A stretch of 64,000 bases of DNA from Thermostichus vulcanus str. 'Rupite' (GTDB lineage Bacteria > Cyanobacteriota > Cyanobacteriia > Thermostichales > Thermostichaceae), in the NCBI RefSeq assembly GCF_022848905.1, contig NZ_JAFIRA010000004.1:62001-126000 (forward strand). Reading direction: 5' to 3'. Made by a program: the position numbers and the translations under genes. Below are positions 6,440 to 39,882 of the stretch, in pieces (the first letter of the stretch is position 1; the number at the start of each line of letters is the position of its first letter). The notes under the pieces were generated by a model. The model was not told where the DNA came from and searched no databases. It was given only the letters and a program-made list of their open reading frames with translations.

Positions 6440-8175
6440 GTGCTAGCACGTCCATCTCCCAAACCCTCTTGGGAGCAGAACCTGTTAAACCCTATACGGC
6501 CTACCGTTGGGCGCGGGAAAACTATACTCGCCAGGGTCGTATGCTGGACATCTGGCGGTTTGTCCTCACTTGGCTGGCCTATCTGTGGCTGGATCAGCAG
6601 GCCTGGAGCTACGGCGGACAACCCACACCAGAACGGAAGGCCAAACGCCGGCGGGCCAGGGCCATTTGGATCCGCGAAACCCTGCTCAATTTGGGCCCTA
6701 CCTTCATCAAAGTGGGGCAGTTTTTCTCCACCCGCGCTGATCTGTTCCCGTCTGAATATGTGGAGGAGCTGGCCAAGCTCCAGGATCGGGTTCCCTCTTT
6801 TGGCTACGAACAGGTGGCTGCCATCGTGCAGCAGGAGCTGGGCAAACCGATTGCCAAGATCTACAGTTACTTCGATCCCACTCCCTTGGCCGCCGCCAGT
6901 TTGGGACAAGTCCACCGTGCCAAGCTGAAAACTGGGGAAGAGGTGGTGGTTAAGGTGCAGCGACCGGGGCTAACCCGTCTGTTCACCATCGATTTGGAGA
7001 TCTGCCGGGGGATTGCTGAGTTTTTTCAATACCGCACCCGCTGGGGGGGAGCCGGACGAGATTGGATTGGCATTTACGAAGAGTGTCGGCGCACCCTATG
7101 GGAAGAGGTGGACTACCTCAACGAGGGGCGCAACGCCGATACCTTCCGCCGCAACTTTCGGGATATGCCGCAAATCGCGGTGCCTCGGGTCTATTGGCGT
7201 TACACCTCCCATCGTCTGCTGACCTTGGAATACCTGCCCGGCATCAAAATCAGCGATTACGAAGCCTTGAGCGCAGCGGGGTTGGATCGTAAGGTATTGG
7301 CCCGTTTGGGGGCGGCATCTTATCTGCGGCAGTTACTCAAGGATGGATTTTTCCACGCCGATCCGCATCCGGGCAACATCGCCGTCAAGCCGGATGGCAC
7401 CCTAATTTTCTACGACTTCGGCATGATGGGCCGCATTCGCCCCGGCATCAAAGAAAAGCTAATGGGCACTCTGGCGGGTGTGGTTTCCAAAAATGCCGAA
7501 TTGGTGGTGGCATCCCTGGTGGAGTTGGGGGTGCTGGTGCCCACTGCCGATATGACTCCGGTACGCCGCTCGGTGCAGTACATGCTGGACAATTTCATGG
7601 ATCAGCCCTTCTCCAGCAACCCGGAAGCCATCTCGGTAACAGCAATTAGTGAAGATCTCTACGAATTGGTCTATGATCAACCCTTTCGGTTTCCTGCCAC
7701 CTTCACTTTCGTGATGCGGGCACTGACCACCTTGGAGGGATTGGGGAAGGGGTTGGATCCTGAGTTTAACTTTATGGAAGTGGCCAAGCCCTTTGTGGAG
7801 GAGTTGATGAGCTTGAACGGAGCCGAAACCGAAACCCTGCTGGCCCAAGTCAGTCGTCAGGCCGCCGAGTTCACCAGCAGCAGCCTTAGCTTGCCCCGCC
7901 GCATCGAATCCACGTTGAGCAAGTTGGAACAGGGGGATCTCCGCCTACGGGTGCGCTCTAGTGAGGCGGAGCGCCTGATGCGGAAGTTGAACACCACCAG
8001 CATGGGAATCCTCTACGCTGTCTTATTTGCAACGTTTTTTCTGAGTGGAACTCAGCTATTTTTGGCTGGACATGCTACTTTAACGGTTATCACCTTGGTT
8101 TTGGCCGCCCTCGCCGCTCTTGCTTTAGCCAGGGTACTCTTAAGATTAAAAAATCGGTCAGAGCGATTGATGTGA
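6436..8175 (+). CDS. ABC1/UbiB/AarF-family atypical protein kinase
   Basis: 579 residues. Family marks: LGPTFIKVGQFFSTRADLFP (KxGQ motif), PLAAASLGQVHRA (Ala-rich nucleotide loop), VVVKVQRPG (lysine), EEVDYLNEGRNADTFRRNF, FFHADPHPGNIAV and FYDFGMMGRI (metal-binding Asp). Two hydrophobic helices end the protein (about residues 515-570). Cyanobacterial and plastid ABC1 kinases influence prenylquinone metabolism and thylakoid lipid bodies; the substrate here is unknown. The start is taken as TTG 6436, overlapping the upstream stop; the next in-frame ATG is at 6541 and would cut into the conserved start. Confidence 0.9.
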   Translation: MSASTSISQTLLGAEPVKPYTAYRWARENYTRQGRMLDIWRFVLTWLAYLWLDQQAWSYGGQPTPERKAKRRRARAIWIRETLLNLGPTFIKVGQFFSTRADLFPSEYVEELAKLQDRVPSFGYEQVAAIVQQELGKPIAKIYSYFDPTPLAAASLGQVHRAKLKTGEEVVVKVQRPGLTRLFTIDLEICRGIAEFFQYRTRWGGAGRDWIGIYEECRRTLWEEVDYLNEGRNADTFRRNFRDMPQIAVPRVYWRYTSHRLLTLEYLPGIKISDYEALSAAGLDRKVLARLGAASYLRQLLKDGFFHADPHPGNIAVKPDGTLIFYDFGMMGRIRPGIKEKLMGTLAGVVSKNAELVVASLVELGVLVPTADMTPVRRSVQYMLDNFMDQPFSSNPEAISVTAISEDLYELVYDQPFRFPATFTFVMRALTTLEGLGKGLDPEFNFMEVAKPFVEELMSLNGAETETLLAQVSRQAAEFTSSSLSLPRRIESTLSKLEQGDLRLRVRSSEAERLMRKLNTTSMGILYAVLFATFFLSGTQLFLAGHATLTVITLVLAALAALALARVLLRLKNRSERLM

Positions 8176-34364: not shown

Positions 34365-36170
34365 TCAGAACATCATTAAATGGCTAGGATCCAATTGTAG
34401 CCACCACGGGGATCCCCAATTTTGCATCTCTTGCCACCGTTCCCGCAAGACTTCTGCTTGCAAGTGATAGTCTTGGCTATGGGAGGGCGGGCTATTGAGC
34501 TTAAAAAAGAGGGTAAAGCGATGGGGGGTTTCGCTCCATTTGACCAACCAGGCGGGAAAGGTGTTGGGAAGGGATCCATCCCGCCTCAAGGCGAGGTGAT
34601 GGGCACGAATGGCGATATGCTCTCCCGACCGGGATCCCTGTATTTGCAGCTCACAGCCCCAATCTAGAGCCGCTATCCATTGGGGGCCAAGGGGTTGCGC
34701 CCGCGAGATATTTTTGCACCCTGTTAGTTGGGCAATGCTGAGACAGGGGGGAGCCTCAAACAAGCGCCGCTTATCGGTCTGGGCCACAATCTGACCGTGT
34801 TCTAGCACCGCCAGATCTTCACACAGCCGAAAGGCTTCCTCCATGTTGTGGGTCACCAAAATCGTCACCCCCTTGTAGTCCGCCAGGATCTCGCTCATCT
34901 GGTGTTCGAGATGGCTGCGCAGGTGGGTATCCAACGCCGAAAAAGGCTCATCCAACAGCAAAATCTCCGGATCGGAGGCAAGGGCACGAGCCAGGGCGAC
35001 CCGCTGCTGCTGTCCCCCTGAGAGCTCGCTGGGGTAACGGTTTTCCCATCCTTTGAGCTGAATGGACTTGAGCTGAGCCTGGATCCGCTCCTGCTTTTCT
35101 GTCTCACTCAACCCGGCAGGGATCCCGAAGGCGATATTCTGCCCCACCGTGAGATGGGGAAATAGGGCATAGTTTTGGAAGATGACCCCGACCCGTCGTT
35201 GGGCACTGGGCAGTCGGATCCCTTGCTCGGCATCGAACAATACCCGGTCGTTGAGCAGGATGCGCCCGGCATCCGGGGTTTCAATGCCGGCAATGCAGCG
35301 CAACAGCAGACTTTTGCCAGAGCCAGAGGCCCCCAACAGTCCTAGGGGCTGACCCCGGCTGGTGAGATGAGCCCGCAATTCAAAGTGGGGCAACCGTTTG
35401 TGGATATCCACCCAGAGGCGCGGGGCCGGAGCACCAGGATCCCTGTTGGCCAGGGTCGAGGGCACTGCTGCAACCCGTAGAGATGGGTTTCGGGATCGGT
35501 GCCTTTGCAGGGGCTGCCGTTGAAACCAGAGGTTCACCCCCGTCACCACCCCCAGCGACAGCATCAGGATCAGGGCTGAGCCAAGGGCTGCCCCCCGCAT
35601 ATCCCCCGCCTGCACCGCAAAGAAGATGGCCATAGATAGGGTTTGGGTGCGGCCCGGAATGTTGCCCGCCAGCATCAAGGTGGCCCCAAATTCCCCCAAG
35701 GCCCGCGCAAAACTAAGGGTGACCCCGGCCAGGATCCCTGGCAAGGCCAAGGGGAGCAACACCTGCCCAAAGACCCTGACCCCGCTGGCCCCCAGTGTGC
35801 GGGCTGCTGCCAGAAGCGTCGGGTCGATCTGCTGGAAGGATCCCAGGGCCGTGCGGTACATCAAGGGCAGAGCCACCACCACCGCCGTGATCACCCCGGC
35901 ATACCAGGTGAAGATCACCGACAGATCCAGCGAGGCCAAGAGTTGCCCCAAGATTGTCCGCCGCCCAAACACCAGCAGCAACGCAAACCCCACCACCGTC
36001 GGTGGCAGCACCAGCGGAGCAATTAAGACCGCTTCAATCAGAGAGCGCCAGCGACCCCGATAGTGCAGCATTCCATAGGCCGCCAGTGTCCCCAGCACAA
36101 AGGTGATAGCAGTGGCCAGCCCGGCAATCCGCAACGAGATCCACAATGGGGACAGATTGTAGTCACTCAT
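34365..36170 (-). CDS. modBC: Molybdate ABC transporter, permease-ATPase fusion (ModB-ModC)
   Basis: 601 residues. Residues about 1-215 are a ModB permease with five membrane helices and the EAA-like loop AARTLGASGVRVFGQVLLPLALPG. After a Pro/Arg-rich linker, residues about 250-460 are a ModC ATPase: Walker A LLGASGSGKSLLLRCIAG, signature ELSGGQQQRVALARALASDP, Walker B ILLLDEPFSALD and switch LVTHNMEEAF. The remaining C-terminal part is TOBE/Mop-like (IAIRAHHLALR). The fusion is a known cyanobacterial arrangement. It supplies molybdenum for nitrogenase and nitrate reductase. modA lies 70 bp upstream on the same strand. Confidence 0.94.
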   Translation of the reverse strand: MSDYNLSPLWISLRIAGLATAITFVLGTLAAYGMLHYRGRWRSLIEAVLIAPLVLPPTVVGFALLLVFGRRTILGQLLASLDLSVIFTWYAGVITAVVVALPLMYRTALGSFQQIDPTLLAAARTLGASGVRVFGQVLLPLALPGILAGVTLSFARALGEFGATLMLAGNIPGRTQTLSMAIFFAVQAGDMRGAALGSALILMLSLGVVTGVNLWFQRQPLQRHRSRNPSLRVAAVPSTLANRDPGAPAPRLWVDIHKRLPHFELRAHLTSRGQPLGLLGASGSGKSLLLRCIAGIETPDAGRILLNDRVLFDAEQGIRLPSAQRRVGVIFQNYALFPHLTVGQNIAFGIPAGLSETEKQERIQAQLKSIQLKGWENRYPSELSGGQQQRVALARALASDPEILLLDEPFSALDTHLRSHLEHQMSEILADYKGVTILVTHNMEEAFRLCEDLAVLEHGQIVAQTDKRRLFEAPPCLSIAQLTGCKNISRAQPLGPQWIAALDWGCELQIQGSRSGEHIAIRAHHLALRRDGSLPNTFPAWLVKWSETPHRFTLFFKLNSPPSHSQDYHLQAEVLRERWQEMQNWGSPWWLQLDPSHLMMF

Positions 36171-36240: not shown

Positions 36241-37014
36241 TTACAGACGGATAAAGCCATACTCCAAAAACACCGCTTCGGCTTCCTCTGTGGTCAAAAA
36301 CTCCAGATAGGCCCGAGCCGCGGGGGTATCCCGCACCAAAGCTGCCGGATAGACAATCGGTGTCAGCGGATCCGCTGTGGCCACCACCCGCACCTGATCG
36401 GACAATTGAGCATCAGAAGTAAACAGGATCCCAGCATCGGCGTTGCCCTGCTCCACCGCCGTTAAAATTTCCCGTACCGTGCTGGCAAAGACCATCTTGG
36501 GCCGCAGTTCCTCAAACACCCCCACTTCGGTGAGAATCTCCTCGGCATATCGTCCGGCGGGCATAGCTTGTAAATCGCCGATAGAGAGGATCTGGATCTC
36601 GTCTGCCGTCAGTCCGGCGAAGTCTTCGATTGTCGCATCAGAATCGGCAGGCACGATCAAGGCCATGCGGTTACTGAGAAGATCCCGTCGGGATCCCGCC
36701 ACCAACAGATTTTGCTCCTCAAGTGAGTTCATAAAGGAAGCCGCTGCCAAAAACACCACATCCACAGGTGCTCCCTGCTCCACCTGTTGTTGGATAAAGC
36801 CAGAATTGGCGAAGTTGTACTCAATCTGAATGTCGGGATGGGCAGCCTTAAACAGCGCGTCAATCTCCGTCAAGGCTGGCTGAAGGCTCACCGCAGCACC
36901 CACCAAAATGGACTGGGACTGGGCCGGGGTGGGATCCCCCGCCAGAAAAAGGGCAGCAGCAGTCAGGATCCCTGTGAATAAGCATGTGAATAAGAGTGCA
37001 GTTCTTCGTCTCAT
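36241..37014 (-). CDS. modA: Molybdate ABC transporter substrate-binding protein
   Basis: 257 residues with a signal peptide (MRRRTALLFTCLFTGILTAA ending near TPAQSQS). ModA marks: ILVGAAVSLQPALTEI (oxyanion-binding Ser), IEYNFANSGFIQQQVEQGAPVDVVFLAA, NRMALIVPAD, VEQGNADAGILFTSDA and VYPAALVRDTPAARAYLEFL. It captures molybdate (or tungstate) outside the membrane. First gene of the modA-modBC operon; its promoter region is shared with the divergent RHH-Mop gene and carries inverted repeats. Confidence 0.94.
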   Translation of the reverse strand: MRRRTALLFTCLFTGILTAAALFLAGDPTPAQSQSILVGAAVSLQPALTEIDALFKAAHPDIQIEYNFANSGFIQQQVEQGAPVDVVFLAAASFMNSLEEQNLLVAGSRRDLLSNRMALIVPADSDATIEDFAGLTADEIQILSIGDLQAMPAGRYAEEILTEVGVFEELRPKMVFASTVREILTAVEQGNADAGILFTSDAQLSDQVRVVATADPLTPIVYPAALVRDTPAARAYLEFLTTEEAEAVFLEYGFIRL

Positions 37015-37068: not shown

Positions 37069-37136
37069 TACCAACTTTTTTGGTATTCTGGCTTACCAGG
37101 CTTGGGATTAGGGCCAGAGTGTCAACTTTTTTGGTA
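37069..37136. promoter_or_regulatory. Candidate operators in the modA / RHH-Mop divergent promoter
   Basis: Site 1 is a perfect inverted repeat TACCAA-CTTTT-TTGGTA at 37069-37085. Site 2, at 37123-37136, repeats 14 bases of it exactly (CAACTTTTTTGGTA), but its left arm is imperfect. A further half-site, TTACCAG, lies at 37093-37099. Centres of the two full copies are 51 bp apart, about five helical turns, suiting cooperative binding by a ribbon-helix-helix protein such as the one encoded next to it. Confidence 0.55.
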
Positions 37137-37172
37137 ACAACTTGAACACACAGAAAATCATTGAGGGATAAA

Positions 37173-37565
37173 ATGCCAAGGAAAAGTCGAGGCTGGATCA
37201 CCTTTCAGACGTCCGAGACCGAACGGAAACACCTAGAACGCTTCTGTGCTCAGACCCAGCGCACCAAAACGGATGTGTTGAGGGAGTTACTGCGTAATCT
37301 TGACTTTTCGTCCACTTTGTCTACTTCCCCTACTGCTCTGATGGAGGAAAAAGTTATGCAAATGAGTACCCGGAACCTCTTTAAGGGAACTGTAAAAAGT
37401 ATCAATGTGGGCATGGTTAGTGCTGAAATTGTCCTGGAGATTGCGCCAGGGCTAGAAGTGACGGGCATTATTTCCAAGCAATCCGCCGAACGCTTGGGTA
37501 TAGAAGTTGGGAAAGAAGCCTATGCTGCCATCAAAGCCTCCGATGTGATCATCGCTGTGGACTAG
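37173..37565 (+). CDS. Ribbon-helix-helix / Mop-domain fusion, probable molybdate-responsive regulator
   Basis: 130 residues from ATG 37173, with GAGGGAT upstream. Residues 1-43 (SRGWITFQTSETERKHLERF, then CAQTQRTKTDVLRELLRNL) fit a CopG/Arc ribbon-helix-helix: one strand and two helices. Residues about 64-130 (STRNLFKGTVKSINVGMVSA, then EIVLEIAPGLEVTGIISKQS and VGKEAYAAIKASDVIIAVD) are one Mop (molbindin) domain, which binds molybdate. Divergent from modA and next to cnfR. Likely role: sense molybdate and repress the transporter, as ModE does with a different DNA-binding domain. A Shine-Dalgarno and ATG at 37343-37358 between the domains could also yield free Mop. Confidence 0.8.
   Translation: MPRKSRGWITFQTSETERKHLERFCAQTQRTKTDVLRELLRNLDFSSTLSTSPTALMEEKVMQMSTRNLFKGTVKSINVGMVSAEIVLEIAPGLEVTGIISKQSAERLGIEVGKEAYAAIKASDVIIAVD
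37356..37565 (+). CDS. Possible internal product: free Mop (molbindin) domain
   Basis: Inside the RHH-Mop gene, GGAGG at 37343-37347 stands 8 bp before ATG 37356. Translation there gives a 69-residue protein beginning MQMSTRNLFKGTVKSI, very close to how stand-alone molbindins begin. It would be a molybdate-storage oligomer or a modulator mixing with the full-length protein. The signal may instead be a leftover from the molbindin gene before fusion. Confidence 0.35.
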   Translation: MQMSTRNLFKGTVKSINVGMVSAEIVLEIAPGLEVTGIISKQSAERLGIEVGKEAYAAIKASDVIIAVD

Positions 37566-37586: not shown

Positions 37587-39242
37587 TCAGGCTTGCTGCT
37601 GACCGGGATCCGAGTGCAGGGCCTTGAGCAGGCGTTTGTGATCATTCGAGCCAATCTGGAAGCGCTCATTCTCCACATCCCGAACCCAGCTTTGGCTGCG
37701 TCCCAGCCGTTGGGCTAGCTCCCGCTGGCTGATGCCCCGTTGTCGCCGGGCCGCCGAGATATCGCCCCCACTCAGAAGCTTCTCAGAACCCAGCGCTTGT
37801 TTTTCAGAAATTTCAGCAGGGGTTCTCGAGCGTTCAGATGCTGTTGGTGCTGAGGCAGACTTGGCCTTACGGCGTCGCCGGGATCCCGATCCGCTGGCGG
37901 AGGCTTTTGGGTCTTGAACAGGTTGAGCCCGCCAGTCAGGGGGCAAATGAAACCGCTGGATGCGGGCCTGCATCAAAAGCCCCCACTTGCCTCGCGGCCC
38001 GCTAGCGGTCAAGGATCCGCCATTGTTGGCATCCTCGATCCAAAAGTCCAGCGCCTCATCGGCATCCTCAGGCACCGCTTCCAATCGAGCCCACAGGGGT
38101 TGAAGGTTGGGCGGATAGGTGAGCGGGTCAAACTCTGGCTTGAGACCATAGTGGTTGAGAATTTCCAGATCACTCTCAAAGGTGCGTACCAGCCGCTTGC
38201 GCTCCTGCAGGTTGAGATGTGCCTCTTGCAGTCGTTCTTCCCCATAGGCCACCCGCATTAAGGTGGGCACCGTCAGACGTTGTTGCCGCCCCATCCGCAC
38301 CTTAAACAGCAGCCACAGCAGCAGGCGCACAGCTCCCTCGTGGTGTTGCCAATAGCTCATCACCGCTTGCAACAGGGATAGGGGCAAACTGCCGTACTGA
38401 TAAAAGGCTTCCCGCCGACGGCACCCCTGCCGATTCAAAAAGTACCGTGTCCATTCGCCGGGCTGGATCACCCAGGTTAGGCCCACCAGATGGTTACAGC
38501 CTTGCTCATCTTTTTGAAAGTGGCGTTGCATCTTCAGGAGCGTCCACAGGGATCCCGAGGGCACTGAAAACCCCTTCACTCTGCCCTGGCTGGGCCAATC
38601 GATGGTGGCCTTGATTTGGCACACCTGCTCTACCCAGGTCATCAATAGATTAAGACGGGCGATTTTGCTCAAATCTTTGCGTTTATCCCAGCCCAAATAC
38701 GACTCCAGTTGCTGGTCGGTGCAGACAAACGACTCCTTCCAGGGCACCTCCAGTCCTGTAGCATAGGCAGCAAAGATCAGATGTAGACAAGCAGCCCGCA
38801 CATCTGCTGTGGCACCCTCCGGGATCCCCGCTCCACATAGGGTTAGGGATCCCTGGTCGTGGCTGACGGATTTGTGATAGCAAACCTGGTTGTTTGCCTG
38901 TTGCTCTAGGGGTAAAGATTGCAATTGAGACAGGAAATTACAGGTTTCCCATACTACAATCGATGAGGCGAAAGCCTGATTCTGGCCGTTCAAAAATAGG
39001 GGTGGGCTGCTGCGAATGCGTCCAACAATAGCGCGGTTGCGCCCTTTCATTGCCTCATAAGGCTGGGGGGCCGAATCCGGGCATAAGCTCAGACACCGAG
39101 GTTCCGGGAAAAATCCTTCACAGTTATTGCACAGTAGAGGATTGATCCAGTACTCTCCATCCTGGTTGGTAATGGCTTGGTTAGGGCAACTGGATATGCA
39201 GATATTGCAACCTATACACTCACCCGAAATTTGGTAAGCCAT
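37587..39242 (-). CDS. cnfR: Nif gene activator CnfR (PatB family): ferredoxin domain plus HTH
   Basis: 551 residues from ATG 39242; the frame is open to 39401 without similarity. N-terminal bacterial ferredoxin domain: C9-x2-C12-x2-C15-x3-C19-P and C38-x2-C41…C50-x3-C54-P, able to carry two [4Fe-4S] clusters that should make it oxygen-sensitive. A long middle region of unknown fold follows. The C terminus (about residues 495-545) is an XRE-like helix-turn-helix: AARRQRGISQRELAQRLGRS, QSWVRDVENERFQI. CnfR switches on nif genes in micro-oxic conditions in Leptolyngbya; PatB is the Anabaena relative. It sits between the mod genes and the nif cluster. Confidence 0.9.
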   Translation of the reverse strand: MAYQISGECIGCNICISSCPNQAITNQDGEYWINPLLCNNCEGFFPEPRCLSLCPDSAPQPYEAMKGRNRAIVGRIRSSPPLFLNGQNQAFASSIVVWETCNFLSQLQSLPLEQQANNQVCYHKSVSHDQGSLTLCGAGIPEGATADVRAACLHLIFAAYATGLEVPWKESFVCTDQQLESYLGWDKRKDLSKIARLNLLMTWVEQVCQIKATIDWPSQGRVKGFSVPSGSLWTLLKMQRHFQKDEQGCNHLVGLTWVIQPGEWTRYFLNRQGCRRREAFYQYGSLPLSLLQAVMSYWQHHEGAVRLLLWLLFKVRMGRQQRLTVPTLMRVAYGEERLQEAHLNLQERKRLVRTFESDLEILNHYGLKPEFDPLTYPPNLQPLWARLEAVPEDADEALDFWIEDANNGGSLTASGPRGKWGLLMQARIQRFHLPPDWRAQPVQDPKASASGSGSRRRRKAKSASAPTASERSRTPAEISEKQALGSEKLLSGGDISAARRQRGISQRELAQRLGRSQSWVRDVENERFQIGSNDHKRLLKALHSDPGQQQA

Positions 39243-39882
39243 AATGCCAAAGACCCCATAGCTATTTCTTGTACTTGTAAGCAAAATCCGTAGGTTCAAA
39301 GACAAGCCCTGTACCCTCAGAGCGGTTACAACGGCTCGAAGGAACAGATTCAGGGATTGCTTTTTGTATTGGGACGTGAACTTGAATGAACGATACCCCA
39401 CCCTTTCCCGATTAGCCTAGAGGGATTTGGTCTAGGGTGAACCTTCTTAGAAGTTTTGGTTTGTCTTAACTATTTTAATGTTTGCTTTGAACTTTTTTAT
39501 AGGGCTCAGGATGCTAGCCCAACTGTCAATCTCCTCCTACAGCAATCCTGTCTGAGTCGTTAAATTAAGTTAAAAAATTAAGTTGGTTGAATTAGTGAAG
39601 TGCCCAGCTATCTATCCAGCAGTCGTGACTGGCCGTAACTGGGGAGAACGATCGGCCAAAAACAATTCTCATCGTTCAATAGAGCTTGCTATACAGCCCT
39701 CGCAGCAACTTCCTCCTACCGTGTGGGCGGAGAACCAAGCTTTGAACCAAGCTTTACCGTGGTAAATCCGCGTTCGCTTCAACGGTGACGAAGTTTGCTG
39801 TGGGCACTTGCGGATACGGAGCACCGGAGGATTGGCATCCAGGGATCCCAGCCATTTGGACCATTCCCCTCCAGAACATGGA
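39243..39882. other. Long intergenic region upstream of cnfR
   Basis: 640 bp with no supported gene. The part nearest cnfR is A+T rich and should hold its promoter. AAATTAAGTT occurs twice near 39563-39586, and a perfect 12-bp tandem pair, GAACCAAGCTTT, lies at 39732-39755. No standard NtcA site (GTA-N8-TAC), tRNA or RNA fold was recognised. Confidence 0.5.

Follow-up and report, generated by a model that had tools for sequence, protein, structure and literature searches.

Comparative analysis of cyanobacterial genomes points to a molybdate- or tungstate-responsive repressor in which a ribbon-helix-helix (RHH) DNA-binding domain is joined to a single molybdate-binding Mop domain, and which would control the transporter gene modA together with its own gene; we consider this reading of the sequences about 85% probable. 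The gene was studied in a window of 64,000 nucleotides (the whole stretch of DNA analyzed), where it is divergent from modA and separated from it by a gap that contains the inverted repeat TACCAA-N5-TTGGTA, hereafter the operator. The proposal is carried by three observations, namely the domain architecture, the conservation of the operator, and the co-inheritance of the operator with the RHH domain and with modA. The features of the locus are the following.

34365-36170, minus strand: modBC, a permease-ATPase fusion (modB-modC; TIGR02141, 2.6e-66; ABC_tran, 2e-34)
36241-37014, minus strand: modA, the ABC-transporter molybdate-binding protein and proposed target (TIGR01256, 4.3e-46)
37069-37085, no strand assigned: operator 1, perfect TACCAA-N5-TTGGTA (TACCAA-CTTTT-TTGGTA), conserved in relatives
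37084-37089, plus strand: candidate -10 box (TATTCT) for the regulator gene, putatively overlapping the end of operator 1
37120-37136, no strand assigned: operator 2, TGTCAACTTTTTTGGTA, with two mismatches, 51 bp from operator 1 and sharing its last 14 bases
37173-37565, plus strand: RHH-Mop regulator gene, 130 amino acids, ATG at 37173
37173-37313, plus strand: predicted RHH DNA-binding domain (residues 1-47), with helices predicted at 15-28 and 32-47, C-terminal to the ribbon segment GWITFQT
37343-37347, plus strand: internal Shine-Dalgarno-like GGAGG, 8 bases 5' of an in-frame ATG at 37356
37356-37562, plus strand: single Mop/TOBE molybdate-binding domain (residues 62-130; TIGR00638, 5.6e-20; ModG and MopII alignments)

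An earlier note on this DNA had described a CopG/Arc-like domain fused to one Mop domain and divergent from modA, with a perfect repeat in the gap and a partial second copy 51 bp away; each of these elements was recovered, the CopG-like part comprising residues 1-47. The span that it gave for the gene, 37069-37565, is correct at its end but not at its start, as 37069 is the first base of the repeat and the coding sequence begins at 37173. The modB-modC fusion follows modA and is probably co-transcribed with it. Throughout the 3.7-Mb genome (120 contigs), only operator 1 matches the pattern perfectly. The window also contains a nif region, with nifH at about 52.2 kb. The next gene beyond the regulator, convergent with it and conserved in the sister species, is a fused-looking open reading frame (37587-39401, minus strand) with an N-terminal 4Fe-4S ferredoxin-like part and a C-terminal helix-turn-helix.

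The N-terminal domain of the regulator is predicted to adopt the strand-helix-helix fold that defines the RHH (CopG/MetJ/Arc) superfamily. Residues 1-47 are conserved among cyanobacteria (consensus MPRKxQGWITFQTSEEER...LEE.CQ.SQRTKTEILRELVR) and are predicted to form a ribbon segment and then two helices. The domain from the window protein alone gave no significant match in Pfam or NCBIfam, and residues 1-47 gave none in a PDB sequence search; the Pfam family RHH_1 was weakly matched by 19 of 25 relatives (best 2.7e-4). The best Foldseek matches of the N-terminal model (pLDDT 81) are the CopG-DNA complexes 1b01 and 1ea4 (TM 0.7-0.8; rmsd about 1.4 over 41 residues). RHH proteins (repressors and antitoxins) make up almost all of the top fifty matches, with the weak E-values expected for a query of 50 residues. 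The earlier suggestion of an RHH domain at residues 1-45 is thus corroborated by the predicted structure. The linker to the Mop domain is disordered and length-variable, with pLDDT below 50 at residues 45-64. The C-terminal part (residues 62-129) scores 71.1 bits against TIGR00638, above the curated cut-off of 55, which together with its modeled Mop fold places it among the Mop/TOBE (molbindin) domains. Its closest solved structures are ModG and MopII; S65, R67, and N68 are invariant among relatives, and K121 is at least 90% conserved.

The fusion was found in 31 of 292 sampled cyanobacterial genomes, and 55 cyanobacterial orthologues were named; all matches of a pattern scan outside the phylum are stretches of the Mop part. 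Within the 40 bp upstream of the 55 orthologues, the operator is perfect in 46 and carries one mismatch in 6 more, with conservation concentrated in the two half-sites, whereas the spacer and flanking bases vary. In most orthologues it ends 5-7 bases short of the ATG; operator 1 of the window stands 88 bp from its start codon, where 6-8 bp is usual. The regulator's own upstream operator is weak in genus g16, where the modA copies are good, so autoregulation would not be universal. A divergent modA is present within 400 bp in 27 of the 55 loci. Three Brasilonema/Scytonema relatives (L028, L033, and L046) have a modA signal-peptide remnant with an early stop beside the regulator, just upstream of position 8001; modA has seemingly decayed in place there.

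The nifH gene is present in 21 of the 31 fusion genomes versus 26 of the 261 genomes without the fusion. A tie of the fusion to nitrogen fixation was nevertheless rejected, because 10 fusion genomes are without nifH and 26 nifH genomes are without the fusion; the fusion therefore tracks molybdate uptake rather than diazotrophy alone and is not confined to nitrogen fixers. Genome-wide, 30 of the 31 fusion genomes contain one or more perfect operator copies, versus 53 of the 261 others, the latter being near the chance rate given by a control pattern. Since chance copies are frequent in AT-rich genomes, such counts are weak evidence, and what matters is where a copy stands with respect to modA and the regulator.

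We compared the upstream regions of 70 modA genes, drawn from 62 genomes of which 31 carry RHH-Mop and 31 do not, the comparison genomes having been chosen by hand before the modA regions were inspected. The modA operator is perfect in 21 fusion genomes and has one mismatch in 6 (27/31); two more have it with one mismatch at a second modA copy only (29/31), and two have none. None of the 31 genomes without the fusion has it at up to one mismatch (Fisher p about 2e-15 for 29/31 versus 0/31, genomes of the same family not being independent). Five families (f1, f4, f6, f7, and f11) hold both kinds of genome and all agree with this pattern, so shared ancestry alone is insufficient to account for it. 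Where the regulator is located away from modA (16 fusion genomes), the modA operator is kept in 14 (9 perfect). The exceptions all belong to one genus of Nostocales, g23, in which the site is altered, being degenerate in G075 and G284 and at the first modA of G132 and G174. The operator letters in these four genomes read TACCGA...TTGGTT, and the RHH domain is nearly unchanged. Further copies were found ahead of modBC (G134) and of a modA-like gene (G108), and upstream of modA the operator is sometimes paired, 107-129 bp apart. The association of the fusion with mod genes in relatives, and the conservation there of the repeat, were both proposed as checks in the earlier note; the fusion is indeed found with modA, and TACCAA-N5-TTGGTA is kept at both the regulator and modA. 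In two genomes, a copy was also observed 50 bp before the gene for an SLH-domain OprB porin near modA (L114:1238-2501; L115), which is possibly under molybdate control.

From these patterns we infer DNA binding by the regulator, repression rather than activation, and a co-repressor role for molybdate. The Mop domain would bind molybdate (or tungstate) and thereby assemble the regulator into an oligomer, the RHH dimers of which would then, in the manner of the superfamily, bind the inverted repeat TACCAA-N5-TTGGTA through the beta ribbon; the half-sites are 11 bp apart, or one helical turn, and would thus present themselves on the same side of the DNA. Mop proteins assemble as hexamers, according to the part of a 2025 survey of TOBE architectures in gut microbes cited here (PMC11980592), and such a hexamer would have three RHH dimers and could occupy two sites simultaneously. 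The bound regulator would block both divergent promoters, that of modA(BC) and that of its own gene, and when molybdate is scarce the repressor would release the DNA and molybdate uptake would rise. A simple promoter scan revealed no sigma-70 or consensus promoter match. In 37 of the 55 orthologous loci, however, the operator end runs into a TANNNT hexamer (TTGG-TANNNT geometry), so that bound protein would cover a likely -10 box.

Relatives from the window's genus provide a natural loss experiment. In G003-G005, the RHH part and the operator were lost and Mop was kept as a separate gene. In G006, the RHH part is interrupted by a stop codon and a frameshift, and the operator has decayed to CACCAA...TTGGCA. 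Purifying selection on the Mop part is strong throughout, with dN/dS of 0.09-0.13 between lineages. In G001, from the same family, the operator is perfect though the gene is frameshifted, and this frameshift could be an assembly error. The persistence of Mop without RHH under such selection (dN/dS about 0.1), together with the storage function of Mop domains that stand alone, would fit a protein that is mainly a molybdate store (molbindin) with some other role for its N-terminus, the operator belonging to another regulator. We consider this very unlikely, since the distribution of the operator follows that of the RHH domain, not that of Mop. The operator is absent in the Mop-only genomes and perfect just 5' of the start codon of an RHH-only paralogue (L196:5897-6126; L197 around 6995-7220), which indicates that the operator goes with the RHH domain. 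The paralogue, with 69 and 65 residues, was found in two Nostocales genomes near vnf-type genes. It adjoins NifH-like and homocitrate-synthase genes at both loci (L196 and L197), and it may connect alternative nitrogenase genes with molybdate sensing. Next to the vnf-type nifH and homocitrate-synthase genes is also a 453-residue regulator with HTH_3 and PBP-like domains (L196:3211-4572), which could, judged by position only, be VnfR, the Mo-dependent repressor known from published work. We rejected VnfR as a member of the RHH-Mop family, because this vnf-linked candidate has HTH_3 and PBP-like domains, not RHH.

The direction of regulation is unreadable from sequence, and molybdate might instead switch the genes on, with RHH-Mop acting as an activator or as a repressor released by molybdate. 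Such opposite action is likewise very unlikely, given that an uptake system is expected to be switched off by its own substrate and that a Mo-transport gene of Anabaena variabilis is repressed by molybdate and tungstate (PMC4284476). The operator's position beside the regulator start codon fits blocking better than activation, and its possible overlap with putative -10 boxes fits repression. It is scarcely credible that the repeat is an RNA hairpin or attenuator and not a DNA operator: UACCAA-N5-UUGGUA is able to pair and directly precedes the start codon in most orthologues, but its letters are conserved beyond what pairing alone would require, the same repeat stands further upstream of modA, at times as a pair, and no Rfam family matched it in a search.

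Beyond repression of modA and its own gene by RHH-Mop, the window gene may have a second product. The stand-alone Mop gene of the sister species starts at the codon that matches Met62 of the window protein (37356), with GGAGG at the right distance upstream; hence the window gene possibly also yields free Mop from a second start at 37356. We offer only tentatively, as a rather doubtful extension, a scheme in which RHH-Mop would be the master of a ModE-free cyanobacterial molybdenum regulon that reaches alternative-nitrogenase genes via the RHH-only paralogue, and in which one gene in the window's genus would give two products, the full repressor and a free Mop store, of which the sisters kept only the latter.

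The statement of the earlier note that the window holds no ModE is true and extends to the whole genome, in which the ModE DNA-binding domain (TIGR00637) has no match. Among the 292 cyanobacterial genomes, this domain was found in one, an assembly with 9% contamination, and ModE is essentially absent from cyanobacteria. The description of the fusion as a ModE substitute is therefore fair for a phylum without ModE. Its further characterization as an under-described regulator holds, although the regulator is not unseen. A full-text literature search for RHH with Mop or TOBE, with most subscription journals outside its coverage, returned no description of the architecture, and the cited part of the 2025 gut-microbe survey lists ModE, ModE-like, and TaoR-like regulators, none with RHH (PMC11980592). 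However, in A. variabilis ATCC 29413 a gene immediately upstream of modA has been published as a 'modE homolog' (PMC4284476, which cites Zahalak et al. 2004), in a review that mentions neither an RHH domain nor an operator for it. This homolog is probably an RHH-Mop orthologue, and thus the existence of the regulator there was already suspected; in close relatives of A. variabilis (Anabaena sp. 4-3, L016; Trichormus sp., L059), the regulator is divergent from modA. In cyanobacteria, a phylum without the textbook regulator, the supply of molybdenum sets a limit on nitrogen fixation and on the use of nitrate, and a concrete candidate for the replacement of ModE can now be named together with its DNA site, the pattern of which allows the regulon to be listed in any cyanobacterial genome.

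With E. coli ModE (PDB 1b9m, 1o7l), the regulator shares the combination of a Mop-type molybdate sensor and an N-terminal DNA-binding domain. ModE combines a winged helix with two Mop domains, whereas the regulator has RHH, one Mop, and a different operator; ModE-like proteins with one TOBE exist (PMC11980592, in the part cited). ModE controls modABC in E. coli, and the putative control of mod genes by RHH-Mop rests on the co-inherited modA operator. The regulator would be ModE-like in role but is not a ModE, the defining winged-helix domain being absent. CopG (PDB 1b01, 1ea4), the closest structural match to residues 1-50, is a bare RHH protein without a sensor domain, in contrast to the regulator with its Mop sensor. 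The Mop, MopII, ModG, and Tub molbindins are 40-47% identical to the regulator's Mop domain over 66-73 aligned columns and, unlike the regulator, are storage proteins without a DNA-binding domain. NikR, in which an RHH domain is joined to an ACT domain that senses a metal, represses the uptake of that metal. The regulator would resemble it as an RHH repressor with a C-terminal sensor acting on uptake of the sensed metal, although NikR senses nickel through ACT and the regulator would sense an oxyanion through the unrelated Mop/TOBE. Compared with ModE, the same sensor domain would here serve the same job on an unrelated DNA-binding domain.
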